A stretch of DNA of 45,864 nucleotides from a virus: positions 1-45,864 of the IMG/VR virus record IMGVR_UViG_3300032294_001619; one strand, written 5' to 3'. The notes beneath the pieces were generated by a model. That model was not told where the DNA came from and made no database searches. It was given only the letters and a program-made list of their open reading frames with translations. Positions 10,580 to 32,542 of this stretch are shown here, piece after piece (within the stretch, counting starts at the first letter, position 1; each line of letters opens with the position of its first letter). Both the position numbers and the translations under genes were made by a program.

Positions 10580-11227
10580 ATGGAAAGAAGAATTAATATT
10601 TCAAAAGATCCATTTCCACATTTAATTATTGAGAACTTTTACACTGACGAAGAACTAGAATTGATTTGGGAAGAATTAAAGTTCCTCACAAAACCTGGAA
10701 AACTTTATGATCCTGGTCAGCATCACGGGGCGTGGAACTTTGAAAAGCAAGAATTTATGACAAAATCCAGATCATTATGTCTGGATACTGTCTATGCCGA
10801 TAAAAATCTTTCTAATATCATAACTGTAACACAAAAATTATTCAATCATGGATTTTTAAATATTTTCTATGATAAATTTCCACAACATAAACGAATAAAT
10901 CATATTAATTATTGTAGAACAAAGGTAAGATATTATCACAATGGTGATTATTATGATCCACATACAGACATCAGACACGACTTTTTAGCGTTTAGTTATT
11001 TCCATAAAGAACCAAGAAAGTTTTCTGGTGGAGAACTTTATTTTCCAGAGTATGATGATTATGTGTTTCAGTGTATGAATAATAGTTTAATTCTATTGCC
11101 ATCATATGTTGAGCACGGAGTTAAGAATGTATCAATAAAAGATACTGATTACTACTCTGGGTATGGTAGATATTGTATATCTCACTTTTTTGGAATACAT
11201 ATGGATGGTATAGAAGCAAATGATTAA
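10580..11227 (+). CDS. 2OG-Fe(II) oxygenase (prolyl-4-hydroxylase-like)
   Basis: A 215-residue protein with the full set of iron and 2-oxoglutarate ligands of the P4H-like superfamily: H128-T-D130, then a GGELYFPEY strand, H179 in the YVEHGV segment, and R197 in GYGRYCISH, which should bind the 2OG carboxylate. The reaction would be hydroxylation of a protein, sugar or small substrate using O2 and 2OG. The substrate is unknown. The last 8 nt overlap the sulfotransferase-like gene at 11220, so the two form a pair. The AT-rich codon use differs from the fibre genes on either side, suggesting separate acquisition. Confidence 0.85.
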   Translation: MERRINISKDPFPHLIIENFYTDEELELIWEELKFLTKPGKLYDPGQHHGAWNFEKQEFMTKSRSLCLDTVYADKNLSNIITVTQKLFNHGFLNIFYDKFPQHKRINHINYCRTKVRYYHNGDYYDPHTDIRHDFLAFSYFHKEPRKFSGGELYFPEYDDYVFQCMNNSLILLPSYVEHGVKNVSIKDTDYYSGYGRYCISHFFGIHMDGIEAND

Positions 11228-11939
11228 TCAAATATATCATACGTCTCATTGTGGATCTACTTTAATGGCAACGTTGCTTGCAAATTCCACAGTTGTATAT
11301 GCCGAACCATCTTGGATTCATAATCTCATACAGAATGATAAATTGATTGAAGAATTAACTGATAATACAGTCATAAAGTTTCAAAGTTCTTTATGTCATT
11401 ATTCAGGACATCTTTCTGGAAAAAAAGTCTTCTTGTATAGAAAATTAAAGCATCACTTATATAAAATTAAGACATCAAATTATACTGATAATATAGTATC
11501 TACGAAGTATGAGTATCATTTAAATCATTGTCATCCGTCATTAAAAGAATATCAGTTTGATAGTGATTTGGAAAAAATTGTTTTTATATGGTTGAATATT
11601 ATTCAATGGATAAGTGAGACTTCTGATGTATTGTGGATAGAAACAAATTCGTTTCTGAGTAATAAAAAAGAAACTATTGATATTGTTTGCGATTACTTTG
11701 AAATTGATAGGGTAAAAAATTTTGATCTTTCTAATTTCTATGTGAAATCATTTGGACTTCTTGGAAAAGAAACTTCAATTAATGAAACTGAAATTCCAAA
11801 TTTAGGAGAAGTAAAAACCTTATATCCATCTTATGGGATTGTTGAAGATGATCTGTGCGATCAGTATGATGATATTAATGATTTGATTTCTGGTGTTAAA
11901 TCAGAAATGCCATTTGTTCCTCATCATATTTTGGAATGA
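11220..11939 (+). CDS. Sulfotransferase-like P-loop protein
   Basis: A 239-residue protein whose N-terminus reads as strand, then SHCGSTLMATLL (residues 9-20), then a helix and an AEPS segment. This is the 5'-phosphosulfate-binding loop pattern of PAPS-dependent sulfotransferases. The 3'-phosphate motif is less clear: the loop around residues 70-80 (SGKKVFLYRKL) is a candidate. It overlaps the 2OG oxygenase by 8 nt, so hydroxylation followed by sulfation of the same target is an attractive but unproven idea. Kinase or other P-loop roles are less likely. It is more diverged than the two sulfotransferases at 15982 and 21862. Confidence 0.68.
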   Translation: MINQIYHTSHCGSTLMATLLANSTVVYAEPSWIHNLIQNDKLIEELTDNTVIKFQSSLCHYSGHLSGKKVFLYRKLKHHLYKIKTSNYTDNIVSTKYEYHLNHCHPSLKEYQFDSDLEKIVFIWLNIIQWISETSDVLWIETNSFLSNKKETIDIVCDYFEIDRVKNFDLSNFYVKSFGLLGKETSINETEIPNLGEVKTLYPSYGIVEDDLCDQYDDINDLISGVKSEMPFVPHHILE

Positions 11940-11957
11940 TACGGGTAAAGAAGTTCA

Positions 11958-11964
11958 ATAAATA
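11958..11964 (+). promoter_or_regulatory. Late promoter (ATAAATA)
   Basis: AATAAATAAC lies 20 nt before the ATG at 11985. Confidence 0.75.
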
Positions 11965-11984
11965 ACTAGAAAGATAACTTTCTA

Positions 11985-12755
11985 ATGGCAAATAATAGGG
12001 AGCTGTCACAGGTTGCTGGTTTTATAATAGTAGACGACTCCAATAGAAATATTGGTATTGCTACGACAGCAACTCCCTATGTCGGTATCGGGACCACAAA
12101 TCCACAGGCAAAACTTCAAGTTGTTGGTGATGTAATACTTGATCAGGTTAAAGTTACATCCTCAGGTATTGTAACTTCTTCTCAACCTGGTATTACAACC
12201 GTTGTTTATTATGGTGATGGTTCTAACCTTATAGGGGTTAATGCTTTCAATGTCATTAACCAAGACCTAACATCTTCACCAGTATATCCAACCTTTGCAA
12301 ATAATACTGGCGTAACTTCGGTTGGTATTTCAACTAATAAGATTGTATTTGTTCCAGATCCTGGAAACTTGGGTATTGGAACTACCAATCCACAATCAAC
12401 CTTACAAGTTGGTGCTGCCATTACAATGTACGGTCCTACTGGGATCGTTAGTGCAGTTGCATTCTATGGTGATGGATCTAACCTTATAGGGGTTAATGCT
12501 TTTAATGTTATTCCTCAGGATTTAACAGCATCTCCCGTATATCCAACATTTGCAAATAACACTGGGGTAAGTTCGGTTGGTATTGCATCAACTGGATTTG
12601 TTTATATTCCTTCAACTGGCAGTGTTGGTATTAATAGCATTCAACCAGCATATAAACTGGATGTTGGAGGGGATATAAATATCTCAGGAACTTATAGAGT
12701 TAATGGTCGTAGCGTTCTTGATGACGCTTTGATTTATTCCATTGTATTCGGATAG
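11985..12755 (+). CDS. Fibre-like structural protein with YGDGSNLIGVNAFNV repeats
   Basis: A 256-residue protein made of two copies of the module found duplicated in the 4181 product: (V/A).(Y/F)YGDGSNLIGVNAFNVI, PVYPTFANNTGV(T/S)SVGI and a (L/V)GI....P..(T/Y)(L/K)(Q/D)V turn. The N-terminus (NRNIGIATTATPYVGIGTTNPQAKLQVVGD) is the same beta turn unit. It reads as a shorter version of the 4181 fibre and begins a run of four small structural genes (12761, 13089, 13457, 13795) with little or no spacing. Its own late promoter is present. Confidence 0.8.
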   Translation: MANNRELSQVAGFIIVDDSNRNIGIATTATPYVGIGTTNPQAKLQVVGDVILDQVKVTSSGIVTSSQPGITTVVYYGDGSNLIGVNAFNVINQDLTSSPVYPTFANNTGVTSVGISTNKIVFVPDPGNLGIGTTNPQSTLQVGAAITMYGPTGIVSAVAFYGDGSNLIGVNAFNVIPQDLTASPVYPTFANNTGVSSVGIASTGFVYIPSTGSVGINSIQPAYKLDVGGDINISGTYRVNGRSVLDDALIYSIVFG

Positions 12756-14019: not shown

Positions 14020-14922
14020 ATGTCAACATTAAGAGTAGACAATATTAAATCAAGAACTGGAAGTACGGTTACGATTCCAGAATCTAATACTCTTGCAGTG
14101 ACTGGTATTGCTTCTATTTCTGGGAATACGAATGTTTCTGGATCTTTGAACGTTACTGGTAATGCAAATGTTACTGGTGCTCTGAATGTAACTGGAAGTG
14201 GAACTGTTAATACTAGTGGCACTATGACCTGTGGTGGTCTTACTGTTAATGGTAATATGACGGTAGATGGAACTACCACCACTATCAGTTCCGTAAATCT
14301 GGTTGTAGAAGATAAAAATATTGGTATTGGAACCACAACTACTCCATCAAATACCACAGCAGACGGTGGTGGAATTACAATCTTTGGTGGTTCTGATGGA
14401 GATAAGACTTTAACTTGGAACAGTAACTCTGACTCCTTTGCTTTCAGTAATGGTGTTGACATTAGAGGTGCTGTTGAAACTGTAAGCACGGCATCAACTT
14501 ATGCAATCAGTGGATCAACAAATGTTATCTTAGAGTGTGATGCTCATAACGGAACGGTATTTACTCACAGTCTTGCAAATGGACAGGTTGGTATTGTTTC
14601 ACTCAGAGACTTTGCAGTTACAAAGAACTCTCTGACAACTTATACGATTATCTTTACTCAGAATGCAACTGGAACTGGTAACACCACAGGATCCACTGGC
14701 ATTGGAACAAATATTTTCTTAAAACCTTATAATGTTGCTGGATTCTCAACTTCTGCAAGAGTTTCTAGTGGAAGCACTGTAACTATTTCATCAACTGCAA
14801 ATGATATTGATATTGTCAGTCTTGCAGTTCATTATAATGGTGGGTCAACTGGAACTGTCGGAAATTATATTGTATATGCTACTGATAATGGCAATTTCAG
14901 ATACGGTGGTGTAAGACCATAA
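14020..14922 (+). CDS. Fibre-like protein, cassette 2
   Basis: A 300-residue fibre-type protein. It starts MSTLRVDNIKSRTGSTVTI, the same N-terminal plug as the products at 19986 (SEIRVNNIKNEAGTGAPTF) and 28657 (SQLNVDVIKNKSGTGGPTL). Short VTGNxNVTGxLNV repeats follow (about 30-75), then a T.ISS.NL.VEDKNIGIG segment shared with 19986, and a globular C-terminal domain (about 150-300). The shared N-terminus suggests all three attach to the same virion partner. The glycine-rich gene at 14938 follows with an AGGAGG site. Confidence 0.83.
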   Translation: MSTLRVDNIKSRTGSTVTIPESNTLAVTGIASISGNTNVSGSLNVTGNANVTGALNVTGSGTVNTSGTMTCGGLTVNGNMTVDGTTTTISSVNLVVEDKNIGIGTTTTPSNTTADGGGITIFGGSDGDKTLTWNSNSDSFAFSNGVDIRGAVETVSTASTYAISGSTNVILECDAHNGTVFTHSLANGQVGIVSLRDFAVTKNSLTTYTIIFTQNATGTGNTTGSTGIGTNIFLKPYNVAGFSTSARVSSGSTVTISSTANDIDIVSLAVHYNGGSTGTVGNYIVYATDNGNFRYGGVRP

Positions 14923-14937: not shown

Positions 14938-15951
14938 ATGTTTGAATGGCATAAGAAAGAAAAACCAGTCTTTACTGGTATTGCAAGAGGTGTTGGTGGT
15001 TTTGGGTTTGGTGGGGTTGCTGCTGGTGGTGGTGCTAGTTCTGGTTTTTCTGCAACTGGCGGAACAAAAACTGGACCAACTGGTGGATACTTTTTTCACT
15101 ATTTTACAACTCCTGGGCCAAATCCATTCACTTGCAATAGACCAATTCCTGGTGCTAGATTTATCTTAGTTGCTGGTGGTGGATCCGGTTGTGGTGGATA
15201 TGGTGGCGGTGGTGGCGGCGGTGGTGTTGTTTATTCCAATGGAACATTCCCAATTTCCACTGGTGAATGGACTGTTGAAATTGGAGCAGGTGGACCGGCG
15301 CCTAATACTAGTTTTAACAACGGGAGTAATGGAAGTAATTCAAATTTTTATCAACCTGGATCTACTTATCCTTCCCCAACATATTTAAGAGCATTTGGTG
15401 GTGGTGGAGGTTCAACTAGTTCCGGGACCGGATCCTCTGGAGGTTCTGGGGGAGGTGGTGGTACTACTGGTCCTAGTACCGCAACACAACCAGGAGCTAA
15501 TCCTGGGGTATCAGGTATTACTAATGCGGGTAATGCCGGAGGTAGAGCTCCAAATGGTGGTCCAGGATATTCGCACGGCGGCGGCGGTGGTGCCGGAGGA
15601 GTCGGTGGAAGTAGCAATGACGGTTTTGTTTCAGGTCCTGGTGGCGTTGGATTAGGACCTCCAACCTGGTCTTGGTTGCCCACAAGTTTTGGATATAACG
15701 GATTCTTTGGGGGTGGTGGAGGTGGATCTGGATATTCATCTAGTGCTATTCCCAACAATGGACTTGGATCTCCAGATGGAACAGGCGGACAGGCTTATAG
15801 AACTCCCACTCAAAATGGTGAACCTGGTCGCACAAATACAGGCGGAGGAGGAGGTGCAGCATCTACACCAAATCCAGGTCAGCCTTATATTACAGGTGGT
15901 GGTGCCGGTGGTCCGGGTGCTATGGTTATTGCATATCCAGACACTTTATAG
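14938..15951 (+). CDS. Glycine-rich adhesin-like protein 2
   Basis: A 337-residue protein. A short basic N-terminus (MFEWHKKEKP) leads to a Gly-rich stalk. A FILVAGGGSG strand then opens the polyglycine region, with (GGGG)n runs near 80-95, 155-180, 205-225, 255-265 and 305-330. It closes with GGPGAMVIAYP, which matches the GxGxVxxRY closing strand of the other four copies. The strong ribosome site AGGAGG lies 9 nt before the ATG. The closing pattern and gene order identify it as a paralogue of 9233, 20803, 24693 and 29356. Receptor-binding tip is inferred from T-even gp38 analogy. Confidence 0.8.
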   Translation: MFEWHKKEKPVFTGIARGVGGFGFGGVAAGGGASSGFSATGGTKTGPTGGYFFHYFTTPGPNPFTCNRPIPGARFILVAGGGSGCGGYGGGGGGGGVVYSNGTFPISTGEWTVEIGAGGPAPNTSFNNGSNGSNSNFYQPGSTYPSPTYLRAFGGGGGSTSSGTGSSGGSGGGGGTTGPSTATQPGANPGVSGITNAGNAGGRAPNGGPGYSHGGGGGAGGVGGSSNDGFVSGPGGVGLGPPTWSWLPTSFGYNGFFGGGGGGSGYSSSAIPNNGLGSPDGTGGQAYRTPTQNGEPGRTNTGGGGGAASTPNPGQPYITGGGAGGPGAMVIAYPDTL

Positions 15952-15981: not shown

Positions 15982-16800
15982 ATGAGCAAAAAATATTTTT
16001 TCTTGGCAGGATTGCCTAGAAGTGGAAATACTTTGTTATCTTCTATATTGAATCAAAATCCAGACATTCAAGTGTCTGCAAATAGTTTGGTTTCTGAAAT
16101 GTTTTATTATGGAGTCTCTTTACAGTTCAATGAAGTATTTCAAAATTTTCCTGATTATAATTCTTTGGAGAGTTATTTGAGATCTATTTTTGATTCTTAT
16201 TATAAAAATTGGGATGCAAAATATATTATTGATAGGGGACCTTGGGGGACAGAAAATAATCTTAATGTTCTTGAAAATTTGTTTGGAGATAATATAAAAA
16301 TTATTTGTACAGTAAGAGACATAAATGAAATTCTAGCATCTTTTATAAAATTAAATCCAAAATGGATTGATGAAAAAATAAAAGATGAATATAATTCTGG
16401 TATGAGGCATAATAATTTTTATAAGTCTGATGTAGAAATAAAATGTGAAGTATTGATGAGTTCTACGGGACAAATTGATAAAAATTTATGTTCACTATCA
16501 AATCTACTTCAACCAGAAAATAAAAAATATTTACATTTAATTGAATATAATGATCTTGTTGAAAATCCTAAATATGTGATTGATGAACTATATGAATTTT
16601 TAGATATTCCATATCACTACCATCACTTTACGAGTATTAAAAAATTTGAAGCAAACGGCATTCAATATGATGATAATATTTACGAATGCGATTTGCACGA
16701 AGTAAGAAATGAAATTAAAAAAGTAAAATATGAAGTAAAGGATTATCTTCCAGAAAATGTAATTAAAAAATATAGCGGTATGGAATTTTGGAGAAATTGA
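15982..16800 (+). CDS. Sulfotransferase family protein A
   Basis: A 272-residue P-loop protein. The PAPS 5'-phosphosulfate loop is AGLPRSGNTLLSSIL at residues 9-23. The 3'-phosphate site is IICTVRDINEILASF, with R112 and S120. Both motifs fit PAPS-dependent sulfotransferases. It is a close paralogue of the 21862 product: shared blocks include YIIDR.xWGT, KCEVLM.S.GQI and the terminal DYLPENVIKKY. It follows glycine-rich gene 14938, and the paralogue follows glycine-rich gene 20803, so the enzyme occupies the same slot twice. The acceptor is unknown. It looks AT-rich compared with the adhesin. A promoter -35 overlaps its stop codon. Confidence 0.85.
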   Translation: MSKKYFFLAGLPRSGNTLLSSILNQNPDIQVSANSLVSEMFYYGVSLQFNEVFQNFPDYNSLESYLRSIFDSYYKNWDAKYIIDRGPWGTENNLNVLENLFGDNIKIICTVRDINEILASFIKLNPKWIDEKIKDEYNSGMRHNNFYKSDVEIKCEVLMSSTGQIDKNLCSLSNLLQPENKKYLHLIEYNDLVENPKYVIDELYEFLDIPYHYHHFTSIKKFEANGIQYDDNIYECDLHEVRNEIKKVKYEVKDYLPENVIKKYSGMEFWRN

Positions 16801-17580: not shown

Positions 17581-17613
17581 AAACCTGAATACATTATTCA
17601 CATATGGCATTTC
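17552..17613 (+). repeat. 62-bp direct repeat, copy 2
   Basis: Partner of 16797-16858, with three mismatches. It includes the promoter and start codon of the 17604 gene, so this copy looks like the original. Confidence 0.92.
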
Positions 17614-18224
17614 AATCAATTTGGTATTTTAGCGACCTACCAGAAGACGTAGTAGATATTCTAGAACGAGACCTCTCAGAAAAGTTCGAAGAATCAATGG
17701 CAGACTCCCGACTTCACGGAGATGCCCTCAACAAAGATAAACGAAACTCACAAAATGCCTGGATTCCCACCACACATTGGGTTGGTGGATTCGTATGGCA
17801 CTATATTGAACGGGCAAACCGTGAGAACTTCCTATATGACCTTCATTGTATTGATGGAGAATCAATGCAGTTCACGAAGTATAGTGAAGGACAGTTCTAT
17901 GGTTGGCACAATGATGCAGGACTTGCAACTCAATACAAACCCGTAAGTGTTGGTAATCGTCAAGATGGTCTGGCACAAGACTTCGTGAATGAGAACATTG
18001 AACTTGTAAGGAAACTTTCATTCGTGGTTCAACTGAGTGACCCTGATGATTATGAGGGTGGTAACCTGCAACTGCTTGATGAGGCAGGGAATAGTTATAT
18101 TGCTCCTCGTAAGCGTGGTACTGTCATTCTGTTTGATTCCCGCACGATGCACCGTGTTCTTAAAGTCACAAAAGGAACCCGTAAGAGTTTGGTAGGTTGG
18201 ACAGTCGGCAAGCGTTGGAAGTGA
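17604..18224 (+). CDS. PKHD-type 2OG-Fe(II) oxygenase
   Basis: A 206-residue protein of the PKHD/PiuC-like hydroxylase family that is common in T4-like cyanophages. Ligands are H102-N-D104 (GWHNDAG), H183 (TMHRVLKV) and R193 (GTRKSLVGW). Between them lies the typical RKLSFVVQLSDP..YEGGNLQL strand pair and RGTVILFDS. The physiological substrate in phages is not established. It is the first gene of a tight operon with 18233 and 18952. Unlike the neighbouring modification enzymes, its codon use resembles core phage genes, so it is likely a long-standing resident. A near-consensus sigma70 promoter precedes it, suggesting early expression. Confidence 0.92.
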   Translation: MAFQSIWYFSDLPEDVVDILERDLSEKFEESMADSRLHGDALNKDKRNSQNAWIPTTHWVGGFVWHYIERANRENFLYDLHCIDGESMQFTKYSEGQFYGWHNDAGLATQYKPVSVGNRQDGLAQDFVNENIELVRKLSFVVQLSDPDDYEGGNLQLLDEAGNSYIAPRKRGTVILFDSRTMHRVLKVTKGTRKSLVGWTVGKRWK

Positions 18225-18232: not shown

Positions 18233-18955
18233 ATGGCAGAACAAATGACAGAAATGCAGTTGATGTTCCAAGAACGTCAAAACACTGGAACTGCTTGGAC
18301 TCACAATGAATCCTTTGAGAAGAATGGATACTTGGTCATCAAGAATCTATGGGATGCAGAAGAACTCTATCATCCACTTCCAGAAGAGCGTGGGCAGATT
18401 AACTATTGGGGCAAACAGGTAGATCAGTTTAATCATACTCCAGTAGAGCAACAGGTTGAAGGTTCTCTTGCGCGTTACTGGCACCCACAGTATCGTCAGA
18501 TTCATACTGGTATTCGTCTCAAACTTGAAGAAGCACTGGGACGGAAACTTTATAATACTTATTATTATGATCGTTATTATTTTCCAGGACAGGAACTGAC
18601 TCGTCACGCAGACCGTGATGCTTGTGAGATTTCTGTAACGGTTCACATCAGCACCAATCTGGAAGGGAAGGATGCTGATTGGCCCATCTGGATTAAAACT
18701 CCTGATACTTATGCTGATAAAAAGAAGACACAAGTATTAGTTCCCGGTGAGAATCGTTCTGTGGTTCTTCAAGCAGGTGATGGTATGGTTTATAAAGGTT
18801 GTGAACGCCCACACTGGCGTGATGCAATGCCTGGTGCAAAGAAGAGTAAGAAACTGTTTGGTAAGAATACAGAACCTTATTATCACCAAATTTTCTTTCA
18901 TTATTGCTTGCAAGATGGGCAAAGGGCACACTGCGCTTGGGATAGGGCACGATGA
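18233..18955 (+). CDS. 2OG-type / cupin-fold oxygenase-like protein
   Basis: A 240-residue protein with a YFPGQEL.RH.DRD.CEISVTVHI block, where H125-A-D127 would bind iron, then a VLQAGDGMVYKGCERPHWRD block with H194 as the third ligand. The usual distal Arg is absent; Q219 in YYHQIFFHY sits near its place, so the cosubstrate site may differ. This oxygenase type is familiar from cyanophages. It lies 8 nt after the PKHD gene and its stop overlaps the start of 18952 (ATGA), giving a three-gene oxygenase operon. Confidence 0.75.
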   Translation: MAEQMTEMQLMFQERQNTGTAWTHNESFEKNGYLVIKNLWDAEELYHPLPEERGQINYWGKQVDQFNHTPVEQQVEGSLARYWHPQYRQIHTGIRLKLEEALGRKLYNTYYYDRYYFPGQELTRHADRDACEISVTVHISTNLEGKDADWPIWIKTPDTYADKKKTQVLVPGENRSVVLQAGDGMVYKGCERPHWRDAMPGAKKSKKLFGKNTEPYYHQIFFHYCLQDGQRAHCAWDRAR

Positions 18956-20801: not shown

Positions 20802-20802
20802 T

Positions 20803-24269: not shown

Positions 24270-24677
24270 ATGTCACTCAAAAGAACTAAACTACTGGGAA
24301 TACAATCAGTCACTGGTATTGCAACAGTAGGTATTTTGACAGTTGGAACAACTCAAACTGCTGGTGGAGTTGGAATTGCATCAACCACTTATGTTCGTGG
24401 TGTGATAATGCACAATACTGGATTTGCAACTTGCACTTCATCTCTTTATGTGTATCCAAGTAGTGTCGCTTCTCCTGTGACAGGTGTTGGACAAACTGCT
24501 TATCGTTTAGCAAGAGTAGACTTATCGCAGAATGAAACTTTTTTCTTTGAAATGAATTATCCTTTGGTTCTTACAAATCAAGAAAAGATTGTTGTGGAAG
24601 TTATACCACCAGGGTCGGGAGGAGCAGGTATTGGTAGTGTCGTGAACTATCAAATTCTTGGTGATACTGATATCTGA
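24270..24677 (+). CDS. Small structural protein
   Basis: A 135-residue beta-rich protein: SLKRTKLLGIQSVTGIATVGILTV at the N-terminus, then YVRGVIMHNTGFATCTSSLYVYPSS and a Q(E)KI.VEVIPPG hairpin near the end. The middle and C-terminal layout (attached strand, a short K/N turn, then (L/V).E..D/P) recalls the small structural proteins at 3831 and 12761, but the resemblance is weak. It sits between the cassette-4 fibre and its glycine-rich partner. Ribosome site and start are ordinary. Confidence 0.74.
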   Translation: MSLKRTKLLGIQSVTGIATVGILTVGTTQTAGGVGIASTTYVRGVIMHNTGFATCTSSLYVYPSSVASPVTGVGQTAYRLARVDLSQNETFFFEMNYPLVLTNQEKIVVEVIPPGSGGAGIGSVVNYQILGDTDI

Positions 24678-24692
24678 TAAGAGGTAAATAGA

Positions 24693-25826
24693 ATGGGTGC
24701 AAAAAGTTCAGACAACGGACCTAAAGGTGTTGGTAATAATAAAAGGTTAGATCAACATCTTGTTGAATATTTCAGTACAAAAAGAACGAGTGGAATATCG
24801 ACAAATTATGTTCCTCCATTACCATCTGTAAATGCTACTGGAGGAACAATTACCACTTGGAATAATTACACAATACATTCTTTTCCTGGTGGATCAGTTG
24901 GTAGTTCAAATCCATACACTTTTACTATTCCAGTAGTTGCAACACCTTTAATACCGTCAACCAATTTTGATATTATTTTGGTTGCTGGTGGAGGTAGTGG
25001 TGGAGATGATACTCCAGGTGCTTATGGCGGTGGCGGTGGGGGAGCTGGTGGAGTAAGATTTATTCCACAAATATCATTACCTATTGGATCATATCCAATT
25101 AGTGTTGGTGGCGGTGCAAATGCATCCCCAGGAGATGGTGTAAATGGGCAACCAACAGTTTTTAATCCTGGGGATGGTAATGGTATTCCATCAATTACAG
25201 TTCATGGTGGAGGATATGGTGGTGCCGGTAGTGGAGGAGGAGGAAATCCTGGTGGGTCTGGCGGAGGAAAAGATTATCCCGGTCCAACAGCTCAATTTGG
25301 TGCAGGAAATAATGGAGCAGGAAATAGTCCAGAACCAAGAGCAAGTGGACCAACATCACCCATTGGCGATACTAGATTCCAAGGAAGTCCTGGAAACGCA
25401 ACTGCCTCTGATACATCTTACTCTGGTGGTGGCGGTGGTGGAGCAAGATATAGTCCTCCAACATATTACTCGACGCCAATGCTTGTACCTGGTATCACTG
25501 TTCCTGCTCCCGCAGTATCTTTTAGAGCGCAAGGTGGTGATGGAATCGATTTTAGTCCTATAATTGGACCAAGAGCAACCAATGGATTTGGTGATAGTAA
25601 TTATCCAACAGAAGCTTGGTTTGGTGGTGGAGGTCATGGAGGTCAATACCCAGGAGGAACTGGTGCTCCTGGCACGGGAGGAAAAGGTGGTGGAGGTGGA
25701 GCTCCTCAACCATCAAAAAATGGACAACCAAATACTGGTGGAGGTGGAGCAGTTTATCAGGGAAATGGTGGTCCAGGAATTGTATTAATCAGATACAAAA
25801 ATACTGGAGGATCTACTGGATCTTAA
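24693..25826 (+). CDS. Glycine-rich adhesin-like protein 4
   Basis: A 377-residue protein. A basic N-terminal part (about 1-40, with KGVGNNKRLDQHLVEYFSTKR) is unlike the other copies. It is followed by GGTITTWNNYTIHSFPGG, a FDIILVAGGGSGG strand, (GGGG)n blocks near 110-120, 170-195, 245-255 and 310-345, and the closing PGIVLIRYKN. Loops rich in Pro, Tyr and Ser separate the runs. Fits the same adhesin-tip class as its four paralogues. A GAGGT ribosome site precedes the ATG. It is followed by an oxygenase gene. Confidence 0.8.
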   Translation: MGAKSSDNGPKGVGNNKRLDQHLVEYFSTKRTSGISTNYVPPLPSVNATGGTITTWNNYTIHSFPGGSVGSSNPYTFTIPVVATPLIPSTNFDIILVAGGGSGGDDTPGAYGGGGGGAGGVRFIPQISLPIGSYPISVGGGANASPGDGVNGQPTVFNPGDGNGIPSITVHGGGYGGAGSGGGGNPGGSGGGKDYPGPTAQFGAGNNGAGNSPEPRASGPTSPIGDTRFQGSPGNATASDTSYSGGGGGGARYSPPTYYSTPMLVPGITVPAPAVSFRAQGGDGIDFSPIIGPRATNGFGDSNYPTEAWFGGGGHGGQYPGGTGAPGTGGKGGGGGAPQPSKNGQPNTGGGGAVYQGNGGPGIVLIRYKNTGGSTGS

Positions 25827-25852
25827 CTATAAAACTTTTGCTTTAAAATATA

Positions 25853-26428
25853 ATGAGAGAATTTTTTGTGCTGGATAATTTTTTTGAAGATCCAGATGAG
25901 GTTAGAAAAAGAGCTTTAAATTATTTTAGATTTTATAATTCAACAGATCATCCAGATCCTCAACATTTATTGCAGTTTCCTGGATTGAGAACCAATTATA
26001 TTAATCTTCAAGATACTGAATTATCTAAAATGATTATTGAAAAACAAGCGGCAATAACAAACTTTATTACAAATAACCGCGTAGATTGGTCGCATGAAGA
26101 CAATAGAGTGTGGAATACTTTTTCACTTACTTTTAAAAATATAAACAAGCAGTTACCTCAATGGCATCAAGATTTTATTGGAGAAAATGATAATAAGTGT
26201 GAGTATTATTATGCTGGTGTTGTTTATTTAAATAAAAATGTAAGAAAAGGGAGAGGAACAAAAATAAAACTTTCTTCTGGTGAAATTGTAAATGTTGAGA
26301 ATAAGTATAATCGTTTTGTAATATACAATTCAAAACTTCCACATACGATTGCAAAATCTTTTGGATGGAATAAAGATAATGGTAGACTTGTAATGTCTCA
26401 ATTTTTTTCTTTCAATCTAAAAAAATAA
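25853..26428 (+). CDS. 2OG-Fe(II) oxygenase-like protein (DUF6445-like)
   Basis: A 191-residue protein: FFVLDNFFEDPDEVRKRAL at the start, then QWHQDF (H105-Q-D107), a YYAGVVYLNKN strand, NRFVIYNSKLPHTIAKSFG (H164) and GRLVMSQFF (R178). The metal- and 2OG-binding set is complete. The layout resembles the phage and marine-bacterial group often annotated DUF6445; assignment from memory. It occupies the slot after glycine-rich protein 4, where sulfotransferases sit in cassettes 2 and 3. AT-rich. A TATAAT (25847-25852) directly abuts the ATG and so is unlikely to be its promoter. Confidence 0.78.
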   Translation: MREFFVLDNFFEDPDEVRKRALNYFRFYNSTDHPDPQHLLQFPGLRTNYINLQDTELSKMIIEKQAAITNFITNNRVDWSHEDNRVWNTFSLTFKNINKQLPQWHQDFIGENDNKCEYYYAGVVYLNKNVRKGRGTKIKLSSGEIVNVENKYNRFVIYNSKLPHTIAKSFGWNKDNGRLVMSQFFSFNLKK

Positions 26429-26431
26429 ATA
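26425..26431 (+). promoter_or_regulatory. Late promoter (ATAAATA)
   Basis: AAATAAATAG overlaps the 25853 stop, 21 nt before the ATG at 26453. Confidence 0.72.
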
Positions 26432-26452
26432 GATAAAACAAGAAGGGCAACG

Positions 26453-26839
26453 ATGTTTAATTTTGCGAGAGTTAATTCCAATAACAAAGTTGTAGATGTT
26501 GTCTTTGTATTTGATGATATTGTAACAGATGATGATGGCAATTTATATGAACATTGGGCATACACTCACTTATATGAAAAATATCCAGATTCAAAAAAAG
26601 ATTATTGGGTAATGATTGATAATAAAAAAAATTGGGGATACATAGGTAATACCTTTGATAAGTTTAAAGATGGATTTATTTCTGAAAAACCATATCCATC
26701 GTGGACACTAGATGAAAACACTTTGAAGTGGACTCCACCTGTACCAGAACCAATTTTAACTGATGAAGAAAAAGAAGTTTCAACTAATTTAAACTGGAAT
26801 GAAGAACTTCAAGTATGGGAAAAATATACCTTAATATGA
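26453..26839 (+). CDS. Diverged MAHFA-family protein
   Basis: A 128-residue protein in the same family plan as 10099 and 26885: (F)(N)FARVNSNNKVVDVV start, DDDGN turn, W.YIGNTFDKFKDGFI(S)EKPYPSW core, and a W....PPVPEP ending with two W-E hairpins. The conserved cysteine segment (FCK..LG) of its relatives is replaced by YTHLYEKYPDSKKDYW. More AT-rich than 26885, with its own late promoter. Function unknown. Confidence 0.74.
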   Translation: MFNFARVNSNNKVVDVVFVFDDIVTDDDGNLYEHWAYTHLYEKYPDSKKDYWVMIDNKKNWGYIGNTFDKFKDGFISEKPYPSWTLDENTLKWTPPVPEPILTDEEKEVSTNLNWNEELQVWEKYTLI

Positions 26840-26845
26840 TATAAT
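26837..26845 (+). promoter_or_regulatory. Extended -10 promoter (TGATATAAT)
   Basis: The same 9-bp element as at 10550 and 31331, here about 40 nt upstream of the ATG at 26885. The -10 TATAAT is at 26840-26845. Confidence 0.48.
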
Positions 26846-26884
26846 AAATATTTTAAAATAACATCAATTAATATAAAGAAAACA

Positions 26885-27307
26885 ATGGCACACTTTGCAC
26901 AACTAGATGAAAACAATGTGGTAACTCAGGTCATTGTAGTTGCCAATGAAGATACTTCGGATGTAAACGGAAACGAAGTAGAAGAAATCGGTGTAGCATT
27001 CTGTAAGAAACTTCTGGGTGCTGATACCAACTGGAAGCAGACTTCATACAACAATAACTTCCGAGTACGCTACGCAGGGATCTCATATCACTATAATGAG
27101 GAACTAGATGCTTTCATTGCACCAAAACCCTTTGAGTCTTGGGTTCTTAACACAGAAACCGCTGACTGGGAATCACCAGTTGGTCCTGCTCCCGCACTGA
27201 CCGAAGCAGAAATTGAAGCACGTTCATTCTATCGCTGGGATGAAGAAGCAGGTGCTTGGGAACTCTTTACTCCCGAACCACCAGCAGAAGAAACACCTAC
27301 TGAATGA
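26885..27307 (+). CDS. Conserved cyanophage protein, MAHFAxLDxNNVVTQV family
   Basis: A 140-residue protein, MAHFAQLDENNVVTQVIVV, NGNEVEEIGVAFCKKLLG, NWKQTSYNNNFRVRYAGI, PFESWVLNTETADWESP, ending in an acidic Pro/Glu tail. It aligns along its length with the 10099 protein and, more weakly, with 26453. Codon use is GC-richer than 26453, like core genes, and it has a strong terminator 3 nt beyond the stop. This is the standard form of a family common in T4-like cyanophages; its function is not known to me. Confidence 0.85.
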   Translation: MAHFAQLDENNVVTQVIVVANEDTSDVNGNEVEEIGVAFCKKLLGADTNWKQTSYNNNFRVRYAGISYHYNEELDAFIAPKPFESWVLNTETADWESPVGPAPALTEAEIEARSFYRWDEEAGAWELFTPEPPAEETPTE

Positions 27308-27312
27308 TAAGC

Positions 27313-27337
27313 AAGGAGGGGCAACCCTCCTTTTTTT
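27313..27337 (+). terminator. Rho-independent terminator
   Basis: AAGGAGGG / CCCTCCTT stem with a GCAA tetraloop and a T-run to 27337, directly after the 26885 gene. It separates this unit from the 27342 late promoter. Confidence 0.93.
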
Positions 27338-27341
27338 ATAA

Positions 27342-27348
27342 CTAAATA
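27342..27348 (+). promoter_or_regulatory. Late promoter (CTAAATA)
   Basis: ACTAAATAATAG lies just behind the terminator and 27 nt before the ATG at 27376. Confidence 0.7.
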
Positions 27349-27375
27349 ATAGCAACGCAGATCGTCTATAAATCA

Positions 27376-28632
27376 ATGCCCCTTATCGGCAATCCTTATG
27401 TCGTTGGAGATACGACAGGAAACTTTAAGAAACTTGATAATCTTTCGTCATACACTTTGACGTTTGATCCGTCAGTTAAAGTATCTCTCACAAACGACAC
27501 AATCACTGAAATAGATCATAGGTTCGTTACAGGACAGAGAGTCACCTATACGCACGGCGGTGGAAGTGCAATCGGTGGTCTGACTTCTGGAAGTGCTTAT
27601 TATATTGTTAATAATAGTGCAGACACAATCAAACTTGCTGCAACATATGCAGATGCGCTTGCAAGCAATACAATCAATCTGACTTCTGTTGGATCTGGAA
27701 CTGCTCATACAATCAATCTTGCCTTTGATGGAATTAACACAAGATTCAGAGCAACTTATGGAAACGGTGGAAAAGCAAGAATCACAAATGCTTCCCAACT
27801 GACTATTTCAATCAATGGTGTTCTGCAACAACCATTTGAGACCTCAACGCCTACTGATGGTTATGGTATTGAGCATCCTGGTGTTATTGTTTTCTCAGTT
27901 GCTCCTGGAAGTGGTGATGTTTTCTGGGGAAACATTATTGCCAATAACTTCCCAACTTATGATATTAGTGACAATAAGGTTGATAACTTCACCGCAAATG
28001 GTGTAGATACTGATTTCACACTTTCCCAAGTAGCACCAAATAATGAAAGCGTTCTTGTAACGATTGATGGTGTCACACAATATCCAAGTGATAATGATAC
28101 CGCAAGATCATATTCAATCTATGGTAGTGTTCTAAGTTTTACTGAGGCACCAGAATCAGGTGCAGCGATTCAGGCAAGACACATTGGTTTTGCTGGTGCC
28201 ACAAGTAGTGCAGTCACTGGATTCAATGGAAGAACTGGTAATGTTGGTTTAAGACCTGGTGACCCATTAGTTGGTGTTGGTATTCAGTCTGGTGGGGTTA
28301 CCATTGGTGCTGGTGTTACTCAGATCAATTTTATTGGTGCAGGAAATACAGTTGCTGTTGTTGGTGATCGTATTGATGTTAGCATTTCTGGTGGTGGTTC
28401 TGGTGGCATTGGAACAAACATAAGTGATGTTAGTGGATTTTCTTATATTGACCAAAGTGGAAAACTAATCACATCAAATATAGTATTCGATACAACAAAT
28501 TCTGGAATTTCTAATTCTTATATTTTATTATCAGATAAAAAAATGACCATTGATACTGGTGTTGGAGTGACTATTGGAACTGGAAAACTTTTAGTAATAG
28601 ATCCATTTGATTTGCCAGATCCATTATCATAA
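27376..28632 (+). CDS. Virion structural protein with repeated DGVxQxP modules
   Basis: A 418-residue beta-rich protein. The start IGNPYVVGDTTGNFKKLDNLSSYT resembles that of the 23199 product (YIGRPQQTGPYIKLDDISDQF). Two hairpin modules follow the pattern (I/V)(S/T)I(N/D)GV.Q.P ... (I/L).F..AP..G near residues 144-185 and 225-270; the 23199 protein has one. There is a VTGFNGRTGNVGL segment near 285 and a Gly-rich end. Likely a fibre or collar protein in the late operon leading to cassette 5. Confidence 0.8.
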   Translation: MPLIGNPYVVGDTTGNFKKLDNLSSYTLTFDPSVKVSLTNDTITEIDHRFVTGQRVTYTHGGGSAIGGLTSGSAYYIVNNSADTIKLAATYADALASNTINLTSVGSGTAHTINLAFDGINTRFRATYGNGGKARITNASQLTISINGVLQQPFETSTPTDGYGIEHPGVIVFSVAPGSGDVFWGNIIANNFPTYDISDNKVDNFTANGVDTDFTLSQVAPNNESVLVTIDGVTQYPSDNDTARSYSIYGSVLSFTEAPESGAAIQARHIGFAGATSSAVTGFNGRTGNVGLRPGDPLVGVGIQSGGVTIGAGVTQINFIGAGNTVAVVGDRIDVSISGGGSGGIGTNISDVSGFSYIDQSGKLITSNIVFDTTNSGISNSYILLSDKKMTIDTGVGVTIGTGKLLVIDPFDLPDPLS

Positions 28633-28635
28633 ATA
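28629..28635 (+). promoter_or_regulatory. Late promoter (ATAAATA)
   Basis: TCATAAATAACTAAAAAAG overlaps the 27376 stop and is 21 nt before the ATG at 28657. Confidence 0.76.
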
Positions 28636-28656
28636 ACTAAAAAAGAAGCATAGAAA

Positions 28657-29352
28657 ATGTCGCAGTTAAATGTTGATGTCATAAAAAATAAATCGGGGAC
28701 TGGTGGTCCTACTTTACAAGCACTCACAGTAACGACTAATGCGACAGTTACTGGTGTTGTAACTGCTTCGAGTTTTGTTGGACCAGTAACTGGTAATGTA
28801 ACTGGAAATCTTACAGGAACTGCAACAACAGCAACTTTGGCAACCAATGCACAAGGACTCACTGGTTCTCCAAGCATTTCAGTTTCTGGTGTTAATAATA
28901 CTGGCATTTCAACTCTAACAGATTTGAGAGTTGCATCCATTGCAGATAAAACAACTCTTGTATCTGGTAACTCGGTAAGTCTTGTTTATAATACTGGTGG
29001 TGGTAACGTTGCGATCTGCACAAATCCAACAGGACCCATCATACTGAATGTAACGGGTGTTCCAACCGATAGTTCTTTTGATAATCGTGCAATCTCATTT
29101 GCGGTAATCGTTCAGCAAGGTGCAACTGCTTATGGTTGCACAAACGTTACATTAAATGGTGTTGCGTTTGGTGCAAATGCTGCTGCTGGTGTTCAGACTG
29201 CAATCTCTTATGTGTCTGGAACAGTCGCAACTGGAAGCACCACTGGTTATGATGTCTTTAACTTTACTGGTATTAATACCGTTGGTTCTGCGGCATCAAC
29301 ACTTAACTACAAACTACTCTCAAACGTAAGCGGCGGATATAGAAGGTACTGA
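28657..29352 (+). CDS. Fibre-like protein, cassette 5
   Basis: A 231-residue fibre protein. The N-terminal plug SQLNVDVIKNKSGTGGPTL is shared with cassettes 2 and 3. A short shaft (VTGVVTASSFVGPVTGNVTGNLTG, NAQGLTGSPSI) is followed by a C-terminal domain that closely matches 19986: LVSGNSVSLVYN, NVAICTNPTGPIILNVTG, SSFDNRAISF, FNFTGINTVGSA.STLNY. The cassette looks like a duplicate of cassette 3. The glycine-rich gene starts 3 nt after the stop codon. Confidence 0.85.
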   Translation: MSQLNVDVIKNKSGTGGPTLQALTVTTNATVTGVVTASSFVGPVTGNVTGNLTGTATTATLATNAQGLTGSPSISVSGVNNTGISTLTDLRVASIADKTTLVSGNSVSLVYNTGGGNVAICTNPTGPIILNVTGVPTDSSFDNRAISFAVIVQQGATAYGCTNVTLNGVAFGANAAAGVQTAISYVSGTVATGSTTGYDVFNFTGINTVGSAASTLNYKLLSNVSGGYRRY

Positions 29353-29355: not shown

Positions 29356-30681
29356 ATGGCTCCCATTGTTACTTCTCTGGCATCGATTGTAAAACAGTTT
29401 GGTATTGGCGCTGTTCTTGCTGCTCCTAGTGGTGGTGGATTCACTTATACTGGTGCAAGTGGAGGTGTGGTTAGTGATTATGTAGATCCAGGACCTGGTA
29501 CTAGATATCGTGCTCATATTTTCACATCATCTGGAACTTTTACAGTCACTGATCCTGCTATTGCAAGTGTTGAGTATCTTGTTGTTGCAGGCGGTGGTGC
29601 AGGAGGATTTGGACACGGTGGTGGAGGGGGTGCTGGTGGATTGCGAACTAATCTTTCTGGGCATCCATTAGCAGGTTCAGCATTTCCAATATCACCAGGT
29701 CCTTATAGTGTAACTGTTGGTGGTGGCGGAGCCGGTGCTAATGTTTATCATACAGTTGGCGCTAATGGTACTCCATCGGCATTTTCTACTATCACTTCTA
29801 CGGCAGGTGGTGGTGGTGGTATCAATAATGGTGGAACTTATATAGGAGGAAGTGCTGGAGGTTCTGGTGGTGGTGGATCAGGAGCACCCAATAATCCAAA
29901 TAAGGGAGCAGGAAACAGTCCACCAACATCACCATCGCAAGGAAATCCTGGCGGTGATGGTGCAGGAACTTCCGGTTCATCGGCTGTCGCTGCTGGCGGT
30001 GGCGGCGGTGCAGCAGGTGCAGGAACACCTGCATCGGGGTCTACAACTCCCGGACCTGGTGGAGCAGGAGTTCAAATTGCTATTGCTGGGCCCGCATCTA
30101 CTACAACTGGTGTTGGGGCATTAAATCCAGGCCCAGGACAATATCAATGGTTTGCCGGCGGCGGCGCCGGTTCTGGATCTGCGGGTAATAGTTCTGCAAC
30201 AGGTGGTGTAGGTGGTGGAGGAAGTACAGAACCTGGTTCTAATGGATTAGGATATTCTGGAGTATATGCTACTGGCGGCGGCGGTGGTGGCGCATCTTCA
30301 AAAGGACAAGATTCCCAAGCATCAGGATTCACCAATGGTACAAATCAACCATCTTTTGGAGGAAATGGACAACCTTTTCCACTTTATCAAGGACCTTTAA
30401 TAGGCATACCTTCTTTAAATCCTTTTGGTGGATTTTTTGGTGGTGGTGGCGGAGGTGGATCTGGTAGAGATGGTTGGGTTAATAATGCAGGAGCAGCACC
30501 AAAACCAAATTATACTCCTGGTGGTGGCGGAAAAGCAGCAGACCACAATGGATCAGGGCCGTTAAATAATACTGTTGCTGGTGTTGATTATTTAGGTGGA
30601 GGTGGAGGAGGATACTCCTTTTTCCCAGAAGTATCATTATCTCAACCTGGTGGAAAAGGTATAGTTGTTATAAGAATTTAA
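29356..30681 (+). CDS. Glycine-rich adhesin-like protein 5
   Basis: At 441 residues the largest of the five. It starts MAPIVTSLASIVKQFG, then YRAHIFTSSGTFTVTDPAIASVEYLVVAGGGAGG, a GGGGGAGGL block, a PGPYSVTVGGGG strand, and at least six further polyglycine runs divided by Pro/Ser/Thr/Asn loops. It ends GGKGIVVIRI. Its N-terminal opening matches cassette 3. It overlaps the minus-strand oxygenase at 30678 by 4 nt, tail to tail. Likely tip adhesin by analogy with T-even gp38. Confidence 0.8.
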   Translation: MAPIVTSLASIVKQFGIGAVLAAPSGGGFTYTGASGGVVSDYVDPGPGTRYRAHIFTSSGTFTVTDPAIASVEYLVVAGGGAGGFGHGGGGGAGGLRTNLSGHPLAGSAFPISPGPYSVTVGGGGAGANVYHTVGANGTPSAFSTITSTAGGGGGINNGGTYIGGSAGGSGGGGSGAPNNPNKGAGNSPPTSPSQGNPGGDGAGTSGSSAVAAGGGGGAAGAGTPASGSTTPGPGGAGVQIAIAGPASTTTGVGALNPGPGQYQWFAGGGAGSGSAGNSSATGGVGGGGSTEPGSNGLGYSGVYATGGGGGGASSKGQDSQASGFTNGTNQPSFGGNGQPFPLYQGPLIGIPSLNPFGGFFGGGGGGGSGRDGWVNNAGAAPKPNYTPGGGGKAADHNGSGPLNNTVAGVDYLGGGGGGYSFFPEVSLSQPGGKGIVVIRI

Positions 30682-31319
30682 GGTAAATATAAGTTACTCG
30701 TTTCTGCTTTTAAGGTTCCTTTAAGAAAGACATTAAAAGCAATAGAATATCTAACTATATTAGTATTATTTTTTAAAACTTTATGTTTTAAATAACTGGG
30801 AAAAAACATTAAATCATATTTTTGTGGTTTGATTGTGTATGAAGTAGAATTAATGTGATTCCATTCGGTAATATTTGCGTTAATATTTAATGCACACTTT
30901 TCGTGAGTTGGCGAATAAAAACTGATTTCTGAAGGGATTTCTTCAAACGGATAATAGGATCCACTAAAAAAACTATTACTGTGATAATGCTCTTCTCCAC
31001 TTTCACCAGGGCAGCAACAAGTGCTCCACATAGCACAAATGTATGGTTCTATATCTTCATCATAACAATAAATTTTTTTCAATGAGGATCTAACAATTTC
31101 ATTAATTTTTTCTAGTAATGATAAATATTTTTCATTACTTTCTAATTTAGTAAATGCATTTTTTCCGTCAGACAACATCTCTTGATTAATATTTCCACTG
31201 GCAACATATTCTCTATGATTTTGAATAATATCTCTTTTTATAATGTCAATGTCATTTAGATATAATTTTGTTCTAAAAAGTGGAGTAGGAAATAAGTTTT
31301 CTAAATCAACAGGTTCCAT
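30678..31319 (-). CDS. 2OG-Fe(II) oxygenase, TIGR02466-like
   Basis: A 213-residue protein on the minus strand. The N-terminus LENLFPTPLFRTKLY is the family's usual opening. Ligands: H111-Y-H113 in EEHYHSNSFFSGSYYP, H179 in MFFPSYLKHKVL and R190 in VRYSIAFNVF. HxH in place of HxD is seen here as in the 18952 product. It is the only minus-strand gene in the adhesin region and points toward glycine-rich protein 5, so it is probably transcribed separately. AT-rich. Its start lies 57 bp from that of the divergent halogenase gene. Confidence 0.82.
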   Translation of the reverse strand: MEPVDLENLFPTPLFRTKLYLNDIDIIKRDIIQNHREYVASGNINQEMLSDGKNAFTKLESNEKYLSLLEKINEIVRSSLKKIYCYDEDIEPYICAMWSTCCCPGESGEEHYHSNSFFSGSYYPFEEIPSEISFYSPTHEKCALNINANITEWNHINSTSYTIKPQKYDLMFFPSYLKHKVLKNNTNIVRYSIAFNVFLKGTLKAETSNLYLP

Positions 31320-31330
31320 TTAAAAGTTTA

Positions 31331-31339
31331 TGATATAAT
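31331..31339 (+). promoter_or_regulatory. Extended -10 promoter (TGATATAAT)
   Basis: Third copy of the 9-bp element, in the 56-bp gap between divergent oxygenase and halogenase genes, 36 nt before the halogenase ATG. A TATACT at 31354 is an alternative. Confidence 0.5.
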
Positions 31340-31375
31340 TAATACTATCTATTATACTACAATAATATTAAAAAA

Positions 31376-32542
31376 ATGAATATTGCAATTATTGGGAAAG
31401 GGACTAGCGCAATTATACAAGCATTAATGTTTATAAGATATGGGCATAGGGTGACTATATTTTATGATTCTTCTATACCAGAAATATGTGTTGGTGAGTC
31501 AACAACTCCATTAGTTATGAATCTAGTGCAAAATGTTTGTAAGATTTCTATTGGAGATATGCTTGATGATGGAATTGTATCATTAAAGAATGGAATCAAA
31601 TTTATAAACTGGGGAAATCAAGATTCATTTAGGCATCATTTTTTTAGTAATACTCCCTTAGCGGCACATTTTCTTACTAAAAAATTTAACTTATATATTC
31701 ACAATATTTTAAAAAACTATGGGGTTGAATATATTGATGCGAATGTTGATAATGTTATTGAAGATGATGATAGTGTGATAATTTGTGGCAGAAAATTTGA
31801 TTTTGTCACCCATTGTACAGGTTGGGATGGTTTGAATTTGCAATATAGAAAAGCAATTTTTGAAACTGTAAATTCAGCCCTAGTATATAATGATGATTAT
31901 ATTGAAGATTATTCCTACACTGTACATAGGGCTCATGAAAATGGATGGCAGTTTGAACTTCCATTTCCAGAACAAAATCTGTCTAGACAAGGATACTTGT
32001 TTAATAGAAATTACCAGAGTTTAGATGAGGCTAAATCTTTAGTTAATAAAAAAGATATGAAGTATTTGGAATGGGAGCAAAGATTTTCTAAAAAATTTAT
32101 TCTCACTAAAAGACAATCTGTTAATGGCAATTGCTTGTTTTTTATAGAACCTTTACAAGCATTATCATTACATTATTATGTAATCTTTGCAGAAATGATT
32201 TGTTCATATCTGAATGATATGAACCTTCAAAAATATAATGAAATGAATAAAGACTATTTGGAAAAAATTATTACATATCAAAATCTTATAGCATTTCATT
32301 ATTCTTATGGTTCTAAATTTAAATCTAATTTTTGGAAGGATACTCAAAATAATGCAAAATCAATAGTTCAAAAATTAGCAATACAAGGAGATACTTTAAC
32401 ATACGAAGATTATATTAGAAATGATATTTTTTATGGCACAGAGTATTCCAAATTAGGATGTTTTACTTCTGAAGATCATTTGTATATTCATTGTGGAATG
32501 ATGAATAAAAGTAAAAAAGATATTTTAAACATAAATGCTTAA
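31376..32542 (+). CDS. Flavin-dependent (tryptophan) halogenase-like protein
   Basis: A 388-residue protein with a Rossmann FAD site at the N-terminus (IIGKGTSAI, residues 5-13) and VGESTTP (39-45), the halogenase form of the FAD loop. K71 in LKNGIKFINWG aligns with the catalytic Lys79 of PrnA. G189-W190-x-F-x-L-P matches GWxWxIP with one Trp replaced by Phe. EPLQALSLHYY (257-267) aligns with PrnA EPLESTGIYFI, so the catalytic Glu and following Ser are replaced by Gln260 and Ala261. It is much shorter than PrnA (538). A cyanophage halogenase able to iodinate (VirX1, phage Syn10) is known to me from memory; this may be a relative. A flavin reductase is not seen nearby. Confidence 0.8.
   Translation: MNIAIIGKGTSAIIQALMFIRYGHRVTIFYDSSIPEICVGESTTPLVMNLVQNVCKISIGDMLDDGIVSLKNGIKFINWGNQDSFRHHFFSNTPLAAHFLTKKFNLYIHNILKNYGVEYIDANVDNVIEDDDSVIICGRKFDFVTHCTGWDGLNLQYRKAIFETVNSALVYNDDYIEDYSYTVHRAHENGWQFELPFPEQNLSRQGYLFNRNYQSLDEAKSLVNKKDMKYLEWEQRFSKKFILTKRQSVNGNCLFFIEPLQALSLHYYVIFAEMICSYLNDMNLQKYNEMNKDYLEKIITYQNLIAFHYSYGSKFKSNFWKDTQNNAKSIVQKLAIQGDTLTYEDYIRNDIFYGTEYSKLGCFTSEDHLYIHCGMMNKSKKDILNINA

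Follow-up and report, generated by a model that had tools for sequence, protein, structure and literature searches.

Candidate modifying enzymes interspersed with glycine-rich adhesin genes in the fibre island of a T4-like cyanomyovirus

The 45.9-kb IMG/VR virus record IMGVR_UViG_3300032294_001619, whose full 45,864 nucleotides are referred to here as the window, comes from a T4-like cyanomyovirus whose hosts are marine cyanobacteria. An island of fibre and enzyme genes occupies approximately 1956-32542 and is bounded by an HNH gene on the psbD side and by nrdC. The original prediction held that twelve genes of this island (eight 2-oxoglutarate (2OG)-Fe(II) oxygenase-like, three sulfotransferase-like, and one halogenase-like) form a system that decorates phage adhesins. 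All twelve open reading frames (ORFs) exist where they had been placed and lie, as described, in and between fibre cassettes, interspersed with five Gly_rich_2 (Pfam PF21722) proteins (9233, 14938, 20803, 24693, and 29356). The adhesin-linked enzyme module recurs in other phages and is real. Its predicted families stand for 11 of the 12 ORFs (eight 2OG-oxygenase-like proteins, two 3'-phosphoadenosine 5'-phosphosulfate (PAPS) sulfotransferases, and one halogenase), the exception being 11220, which has motifs only; ten assignments have Pfam backing at some threshold, including 25853 via DUF6445. The enzyme candidates and adhesins are as follows.

10580..11227, + strand: 2OG-Fe(II) oxygenase, HTD...H, AT-rich; PF13640 at cut-off, phrog_61; ratio of nonsynonymous to synonymous substitution rates (dN/dS) 0.07-0.11
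11220..11939, + strand: regular partner of 10580, sulfotransferase-like motifs only; family A3; dN/dS 0.08-0.17
15982..16800, + strand: PAPS sulfotransferase, 26% GC; PF00685, E 2.6e-14; no full-length counterpart in the related locus L010
16952..17548, + strand: 2OG-Fe(II) oxygenase, phrog_274; PF13640 at cut-off
17604..18224, + strand: 2OG oxygenase, T4-GC 412 / phrog_61; PF13640, E 2.7e-15; widespread in cyanophages
18233..18955, + strand: phrog_2954 / T4-GC 615 protein, labelled 'ferrochelatase'; HxD...H motif, profile comparison
18952..19506, + strand: 2OG-FeII_Oxy_5 protein at the T4-GC 155 position, HxH not HxD; PF13759, E 5.6e-13; counterpart in S-SM2
21862..22665, + strand: PAPS sulfotransferase, 24.5% GC, fold like that of tyrosylprotein sulfotransferase (TPST); PF00685, E 8.6e-16; AlphaFold predicted local distance difference test score (pLDDT) 94.8
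22662..23189, + strand: AspH-type hydroxylase; PF05118 (Asp_Arg_Hydrox), E 7e-13; HID...H...R
25853..26428, + strand: 2OG/DUF6445 oxygenase; PF20043 above cut-off, PF13640 below; HQD...H...R
30678..31319, - strand: 2OG-FeII_Oxy_5 protein, convergent with adhesin 5 (4-nt overlap); PF13759, E 5.7e-16
31376..32542, + strand: flavin-dependent (tryptophan) halogenase, short form; PF04820 (Trp_halogenase), E 1.5e-26
9233..10090, + strand: Gly-rich adhesin 1; PF21722, E 1.5e-11; 1.4% Pro
14938..15951, + strand: Gly-rich adhesin 2; PF21722, E 4.7e-8; 9.2% Pro
20803..21825, + strand: Gly-rich adhesin 3; PF21722, E 1.1e-20; 9.1% Pro
24693..25826, + strand: Gly-rich adhesin 4; PF21722, E 5.5e-14; 10.6% Pro
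29356..30681, + strand: Gly-rich adhesin 5; PF21722, E 8e-10; 7.9% Pro

The enzyme set is heterogeneous. 17604, 18233, and 18952 are common cyanophage genes with a GC content of 37-44%, and the other nine are AT-rich cassette genes (24-30%); the Gly-rich adhesin genes have 44-49%. Between the window and relatives, dN/dS is 0.02-0.17 for those enzymes with enough substitutions and 0.30-0.44 for the adhesins, that is, the enzymes are under purifying selection and the adhesins are evolving faster.

Three of the oxygenases match PF13640 (2OG-FeII_Oxy_3) above its curated cut-off (10580, 16952, and 17604, the first two barely). The HxD...H metal site and distal Arg are present in 10580, 16952, 22662, and 25853, and all 28 aligned sequences of the 17604 family keep HxD...H...R; the profile of this family finds PiuC, bacterial and algal prolyl 4-hydroxylases, and prolyl 3-hydroxylase 1 in the PDB. 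Proteins of the phrog_61 type were placed near human EGLN3 in a published survey (PMC12774648). The canonical 2-His-1-carboxylate triad was not found in the Oxy_5 proteins 18952 and 30678, which keep HxH...H in 12/12 and 26/26 relatives and whose chemistry may be different from that of ordinary 2OG oxygenases.

Genes 17604, 18233, and 18952 are collinear in S-SM2 and Bellamy. The middle one, 18233, has HxD...H invariant in 29 sequences, and its profile matches the 2OG family (hhalign E 9e-5, 59%) but the Oxy_5 profile at only 2%. It has no Pfam match at E≤0.01, Ferrochelatase included, and its PDB matches are not significant; judged by motif and profile, it is probably 2OG-like despite its 'ferrochelatase' label. 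Both families labelled in this way, phrog_2954 and phrog_3531, lack a match to the ferrochelatase domain and keep HxD...H, and 2OG proteins also match phrog_3531; the label appears to be wrong for both. Similarly, the 'denV' gene of P-SSM7 (T4-GC 100; L121:3185-3763) matches 2OG-FeII_Oxy_3 above the cut-off, and the 'DNA endonuclease V' label of phrog_274 genes, 16952 included, appears to be mistaken.

Both 15982 and 21862 match Pfam Sulfotransfer_1/3 above the cut-off, and the PAPS-binding residues R16, T20, R116, and S124 are invariant in 40 sulfotransferase sequences. The 13 best PDB folds for the 21862 model are all TPSTs, followed by polyketide and heparan-sulfate sulfotransferases, and TPSTs are also the best matches of the sulfotransferase profile. 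TPST is the closest known enzyme in fold and profile, and the PAPS-binding residues are common to both. The predicted overlaps between oxygenase and sulfotransferase candidates are real, 4 nt for 21862/22662 and 8 nt for 10580/11220, and the former is mirrored in a related locus (L096:9272-10531) by a single 419-aa protein in which a Sulfotransfer_3 domain is fused to AspH. S-SKS1 was rejected as a further example of the sulfotransferase/AspH pair, its sulfotransferase neighbour not being AspH.

11220 belongs to an 11-member family (A3), and in 12 of 13 related loci its neighbour is a homologue of 10580. Its sequence includes a P-loop-like HTSHCGSTL and, near the C terminus, a motif resembling that of the sulfotransferase family. 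No match was found in Pfam, NCBIfam, or the PDB, nor by tblastn against phage records. With a profile-profile probability of 5%, a low-confidence model (pLDDT 52), and motifs only, the third predicted sulfotransferase was not confirmed.

In the halogenase 31376, the active-site Lys and Glu, corresponding to the catalytic residues of PrnA, are invariant in alignable relatives, and the GWxWxIP-like motif takes the variant form GWQFELP. P-TIM40 has a halogenase at the same place as the window, flanked by a large gene and by glutaredoxin. A search of viral contigs with the halogenase query confirmed no relative; relatives came from phage records.

PF13640, PF13759, and Gly_rich_2 were mapped on whole marine phage records, and the ten cultured phages with Gly_rich_2 were used to assess position. 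Within 10 kb of a Gly_rich_2 gene lie 36 of 115 2OG genes, vs 12.8 ± 4.8 expected from rotated positions (p<0.001, a value that overstates independence, the ten genomes having ancestry and synteny in common), and the clustered genes are largely on one side of the adhesin, 35 being counted downstream and 4 upstream. The clustering is weaker at 5 kb (15 vs 6.9 expected, p 0.03) and persists without Bellamy. No 2OG enrichment was found around the control markers gp23 and UvsY (5 vs 12 expected). The UvsX/RecA control was borderline, at 5 kb only (12 vs 6, p 0.06), in agreement with the finding that seven of the ten genomes have a 2OG gene no more than 5 kb from UvsX. We rejected the number of 2OG genes as evidence because 2-19 per genome is usual, as seen in each of 16 marine phage records; their position, not their number, is unusual.

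Sulfotransferase loci were taken from the best 80 of at least 590 confirmed relatives in viral contigs and comprise 47 distinct loci. A 2OG gene of the window type lies immediately beside the sulfotransferase in 26 of these 47, vs 10.6 for genes drawn at random from these loci (at most 19 in any of 500 draws). A marker gene best matching the podoviruses HTVC023P and HTVC027P is present in 41 of the 80; among these HTVC023P-type loci, a window-type 2OG gene is at most three genes away in 41/41 and a Gly-rich gene at most five genes away in 16/41. The gene order in cultured HTVC023P is 2OG, 2OG, 'ferrochelatase', then tail protein genes. As the pairing recurs in podovirus-type loci, the association is not limited to T4-like phages and spans two phage morphotypes. 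In these pelagiphage-type podoviruses the sulfotransferase/2OG pairing lies beside tail genes.

Adhesins and enzymes are also exchanged together between close relatives, the unit being the following.

20138..28870, no strand assigned: block gained or lost as a unit (fibre, adhesin 3, sulfotransferase, AspH, fibre, adhesin 4, oxygenase, companions, fibre), from comparison of L010 and L098

In L010, 20138-28397 is 95% identical to the window, with the sulfotransferase and AspH genes inside it at 99.5%, and the adjoining 17548-19756 is 83-86% identical across its length, with neighbouring oxygenase genes at 85-90%; for the 15982/16952 pair, L010 lacks a full-length counterpart. In L098, 7142-13228 (adhesin 1, 10580/11220, and a fibre gene) is ~92% identical with one gap, in the fibre gene, and the flanks equivalent to 20095 and 28870 come together within 146 bp, the entire adhesin-sulfotransferase-AspH-adhesin-oxygenase block being absent. 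Presence of the block in L010 and its absence from L098 indicate that adhesins and enzymes were gained or lost together.

That the companion enzymes modify the adhesins is, on the sequence evidence, the best single explanation of these associations, and we give it about an even chance. The island would be a host-recognition cluster assembled from exchangeable cassettes, each with fibre and Gly-rich adhesin genes first and the companion modifying enzymes after them. Late in infection, before or during assembly, 2OG oxygenases resembling peptidyl hydroxylases and PAPS-dependent, TPST-like sulfotransferases would modify the adhesins or fibres of the cassette, either at the residues themselves or through an attached glycan, with effects on the chemistry of binding or on the stability of the fibre. 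They would act in trans, and the immediate neighbour need not be the sole target. We infer the timing, the adhesin substrate, and the effect of modification. Gly-rich adhesins with an enzyme at most two genes away have more proline than others (6.8% vs 4.5%, p 0.001-0.004, in a test chosen among 28 comparisons and uncorrected for kinship of the sequences), which fits a proline substrate. A precedent comes from a chlorella virus, which has a prolyl 4-hydroxylase and whose proteins contain 4-hydroxyproline (Eriksson 1999, as cited in PMC9301287). A stronger version, that this is a dedicated phage system for prolyl/aspartyl hydroxylation and sulfation (perhaps halogenation) of Gly-/Pro-rich tail adhesins, whose cassettes move between marine myo- and podoviruses and diversify host binding by chemistry as well as sequence, is put forward only tentatively.

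Several observations weigh against modification of the adhesins, in addition to the shared ancestry of the ten genomes. Adjacency of sulfotransferase and Gly-rich genes is not clearly above the same-locus background (9/47 vs 5.8), and Tyr is not enriched in adhesins adjoining sulfotransferases. The phage sulfotransferase is 15-19% identical to TPST and has Asn37 aligned with the second Glu of the TPST 'EET' motif, the catalytic base; tyrosine specificity is therefore doubtful and we do not call the enzyme a TPST. In at least eight related loci the 10580/11220 pair lies between gp33 and gp59, in the replication region and away from adhesins, and halogenase relatives are found elsewhere beside gp33, talC, or petE/S-layer genes; the ties of this pair and of the halogenase to adhesins are the least secure. 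The predicted tie to adhesins holds in part, carried by 2OG clustering, block exchange, and recurrence in podoviruses; these three genes and the widespread 17604/18233/18952 speak against one set of twelve. Finally, glycan genes occur in a related locus, L096, where an operon-like series between adhesins (2889-13995) consists of halogenase, GT9-like protein, carbamoyltransferase, oxygenase, sulfotransferase, AspH fusion, cupin, HAD, HldE-like kinase, and epimerase genes, the cupin and HAD being assigned by sequence only. This series, and a similar one in L086 with carbamoyltransferase and halogenase, points to sugars, and the glycan could possibly be on the adhesin or on the host.

The main rival is modification of the host surface, in which the enzymes would hydroxylate, sulfate, or carbamoylate the lipopolysaccharide or exopolysaccharide of the infected cell and block superinfection via the same receptor. 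Their location would be explained by coevolution of receptor and receptor-modification genes in a host-recognition cluster, and the glycosyltransferases of such clusters in pelagimyophages have been read in this way (PMC7029224). Besides the carbamoyltransferase, GT9-like protein, HldE-like kinase, and epimerase genes of L096, S-SRM01 has a sulfotransferase, a glycosyltransferase, and a nucleotide-sugar epimerase between fibre genes, a carbamoyltransferase adjoins a 2OG pair in P-RSM4, and heparan-sulfate 3-O-sulfotransferases are also structural neighbours of 21862. We nevertheless find this rival doubtful, as no recognised glycosyltransferase or sugar-nucleotide gene lies between the adhesins of the window, the enzymes studied most closely have peptide-modifying proteins as their top matches in sequence and fold, and adhesins and enzymes are exchanged as a single block.

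Alternatively, a hyperplastic region may gather unrelated accessory genes, so that proximity to adhesins would reflect insertion tolerance and recombination, and each enzyme would have its own substrate in DNA/RNA repair, amino acid metabolism, or 2OG/NtcA signalling. Earlier proposals for these genes, DNA repair and 2OG signalling (PMC3037559; PMC9146016), agree with this, as do the locations of the halogenase relatives and the 10580/11220 pair and the frequent proximity of 2OG genes to UvsX. Such hitch-hiking seems unlikely given the strong one-sided clustering downstream of adhesins with none for gp23 and UvsY, the specific adjacency of sulfotransferase and 2OG genes, the sulfotransferase-AspH fusion, and the recurrence in podoviruses. 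That some 2OG-like proteins are virion or assembly proteins with binding or chaperone folds rather than enzymes is very improbable: 25853 matches phrog_1644 best, a family with the label 'minor coat protein', and the Oxy_5 proteins do not have the canonical carboxylate, but labels of these PHROGs are unreliable, and the aligned families show little or no variation in the metal ligands and distal Arg.

The host recognition cluster of pelagi- and cyanomyophages was given its name by Zaragoza-Solas (2020; PMC7029224), who proposed that it alters surfaces. The window resembles it as a variable island of tail fibres and enzyme genes; that paper differs in stressing glycosyltransferases and host-surface change, with no sulfotransferases and no link between hydroxylases and adhesins. 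Neither VrlC nor gp14, the borders of the published cluster, was identified within the 46-kb fragment. Metaviromic islands described by Mizuno (2014; PMC3909814) likewise have oxygenases among their genes, eight of them listed as 'Fe(II)-dependent oxygenase superfamily protein' under 'host recognition', but with no mechanism, sulfotransferase, or adhesin pairing. Sullivan (2010; PMC3037559) proposed 2OG/NtcA signalling and repeated an earlier DNA-repair idea; T4-GCs 412, 615, 155, 611, 100, and 212 of that study include the families of 17604, 18233, 18952, probably 10580 and 16952, and the halogenase, and the published roles differ from adhesin modification. Wittmers (2022; PMC9599517) read the 2OG-Fe(II)/'ferrochelatase' partners of HTVC023P-type podophages as iron/heme-related. 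Their adjacency is like that of 17604/18233, but here the 'ferrochelatase' looks to be of the 2OG type and the pair is near tail genes. Phage sulfotransferase function has been called unclear (PMC10580990). Neither phage virion hydroxylation or sulfation nor a sulfotransferase/hydroxylase adhesin cassette was found to be reported in the open-access library searched, most subscription journals being outside this scope. The chlorella-virus enzyme is, as far as its description in PMC9301287 goes, a viral peptidyl-prolyl hydroxylase acting on viral proteins. It differs in belonging to a eukaryotic algal virus. No adhesin cassette or sulfotransferase is known to us in that virus.

Other genes of the island encode fibre-like proteins and small companions. 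The flanking genes were assigned by sequence and synteny with S-SKS1, P-TIM40, and S-SSM5.

11985..12755, + strand: fibre-like protein, phrog_28668
14020..14922, + strand: fibre-like protein, phrog_36132
19986..20801, + strand: fibre-like protein, phrog_36132
23626..24246, + strand: fibre-like protein, phrog_8745 tail fibre
27376..28632, + strand: fibre-like protein, phrog_2885 / 38233
28657..29352, + strand: fibre-like protein, phrog_30742 tail fibre
10099..10542, + strand: small phrog_7759 protein 3' of an adhesin, E 1.4e-36
26453-26839 and 26885-27307, + strand: two phrog_7759 companions
2-808: psbD end
32714: nrdC
35339: thyX-like
36896: phoH
39561: gp32
41835-43557: baseplate genes

The phrog_7759 protein, with three copies in the island (10099, 26453, and 26885), is near Gly-rich adhesins in many phages and is possibly a fibre companion or chaperone. 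The Gly-rich adhesins flanking the enzyme series of L096 are unusually Cys-rich. A 129-aa kinase (18 loci) and a 117-aa protein (14 loci) are often 3' of the sulfotransferase in relatives (L086:12142-12868 and others); the former is weakly like adenosine 5'-phosphosulfate kinase and the latter like nicotinamide mononucleotide adenylyltransferase, and we did not count them as evidence for PAPS supply by neighbouring genes. In the relative L103 (123-747), the HNH gene adjoins nrdC without the island, an empty counterpart of 1956-32542. Near gp32 and the baseplate genes of the window, 40594-41259 and 44011-44670 are a similar pair of ORFs that, from their sequence alone, appear to be GIY-YIG homing endonuclease-like.

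So far, the many 2OG oxygenases of T4-like marine phages have been ascribed to DNA repair or to signalling by 2-oxoglutarate. For the 2OG/'ferrochelatase' pair, the published iron/heme interpretation rests on a label that appears to be wrong. The clustering with adhesins and the exchange in blocks make self-modification of phage adhesins directly and cheaply testable on cultured virions. If adhesins are indeed modified, the host range of these phages would be unreadable from sequence alone.

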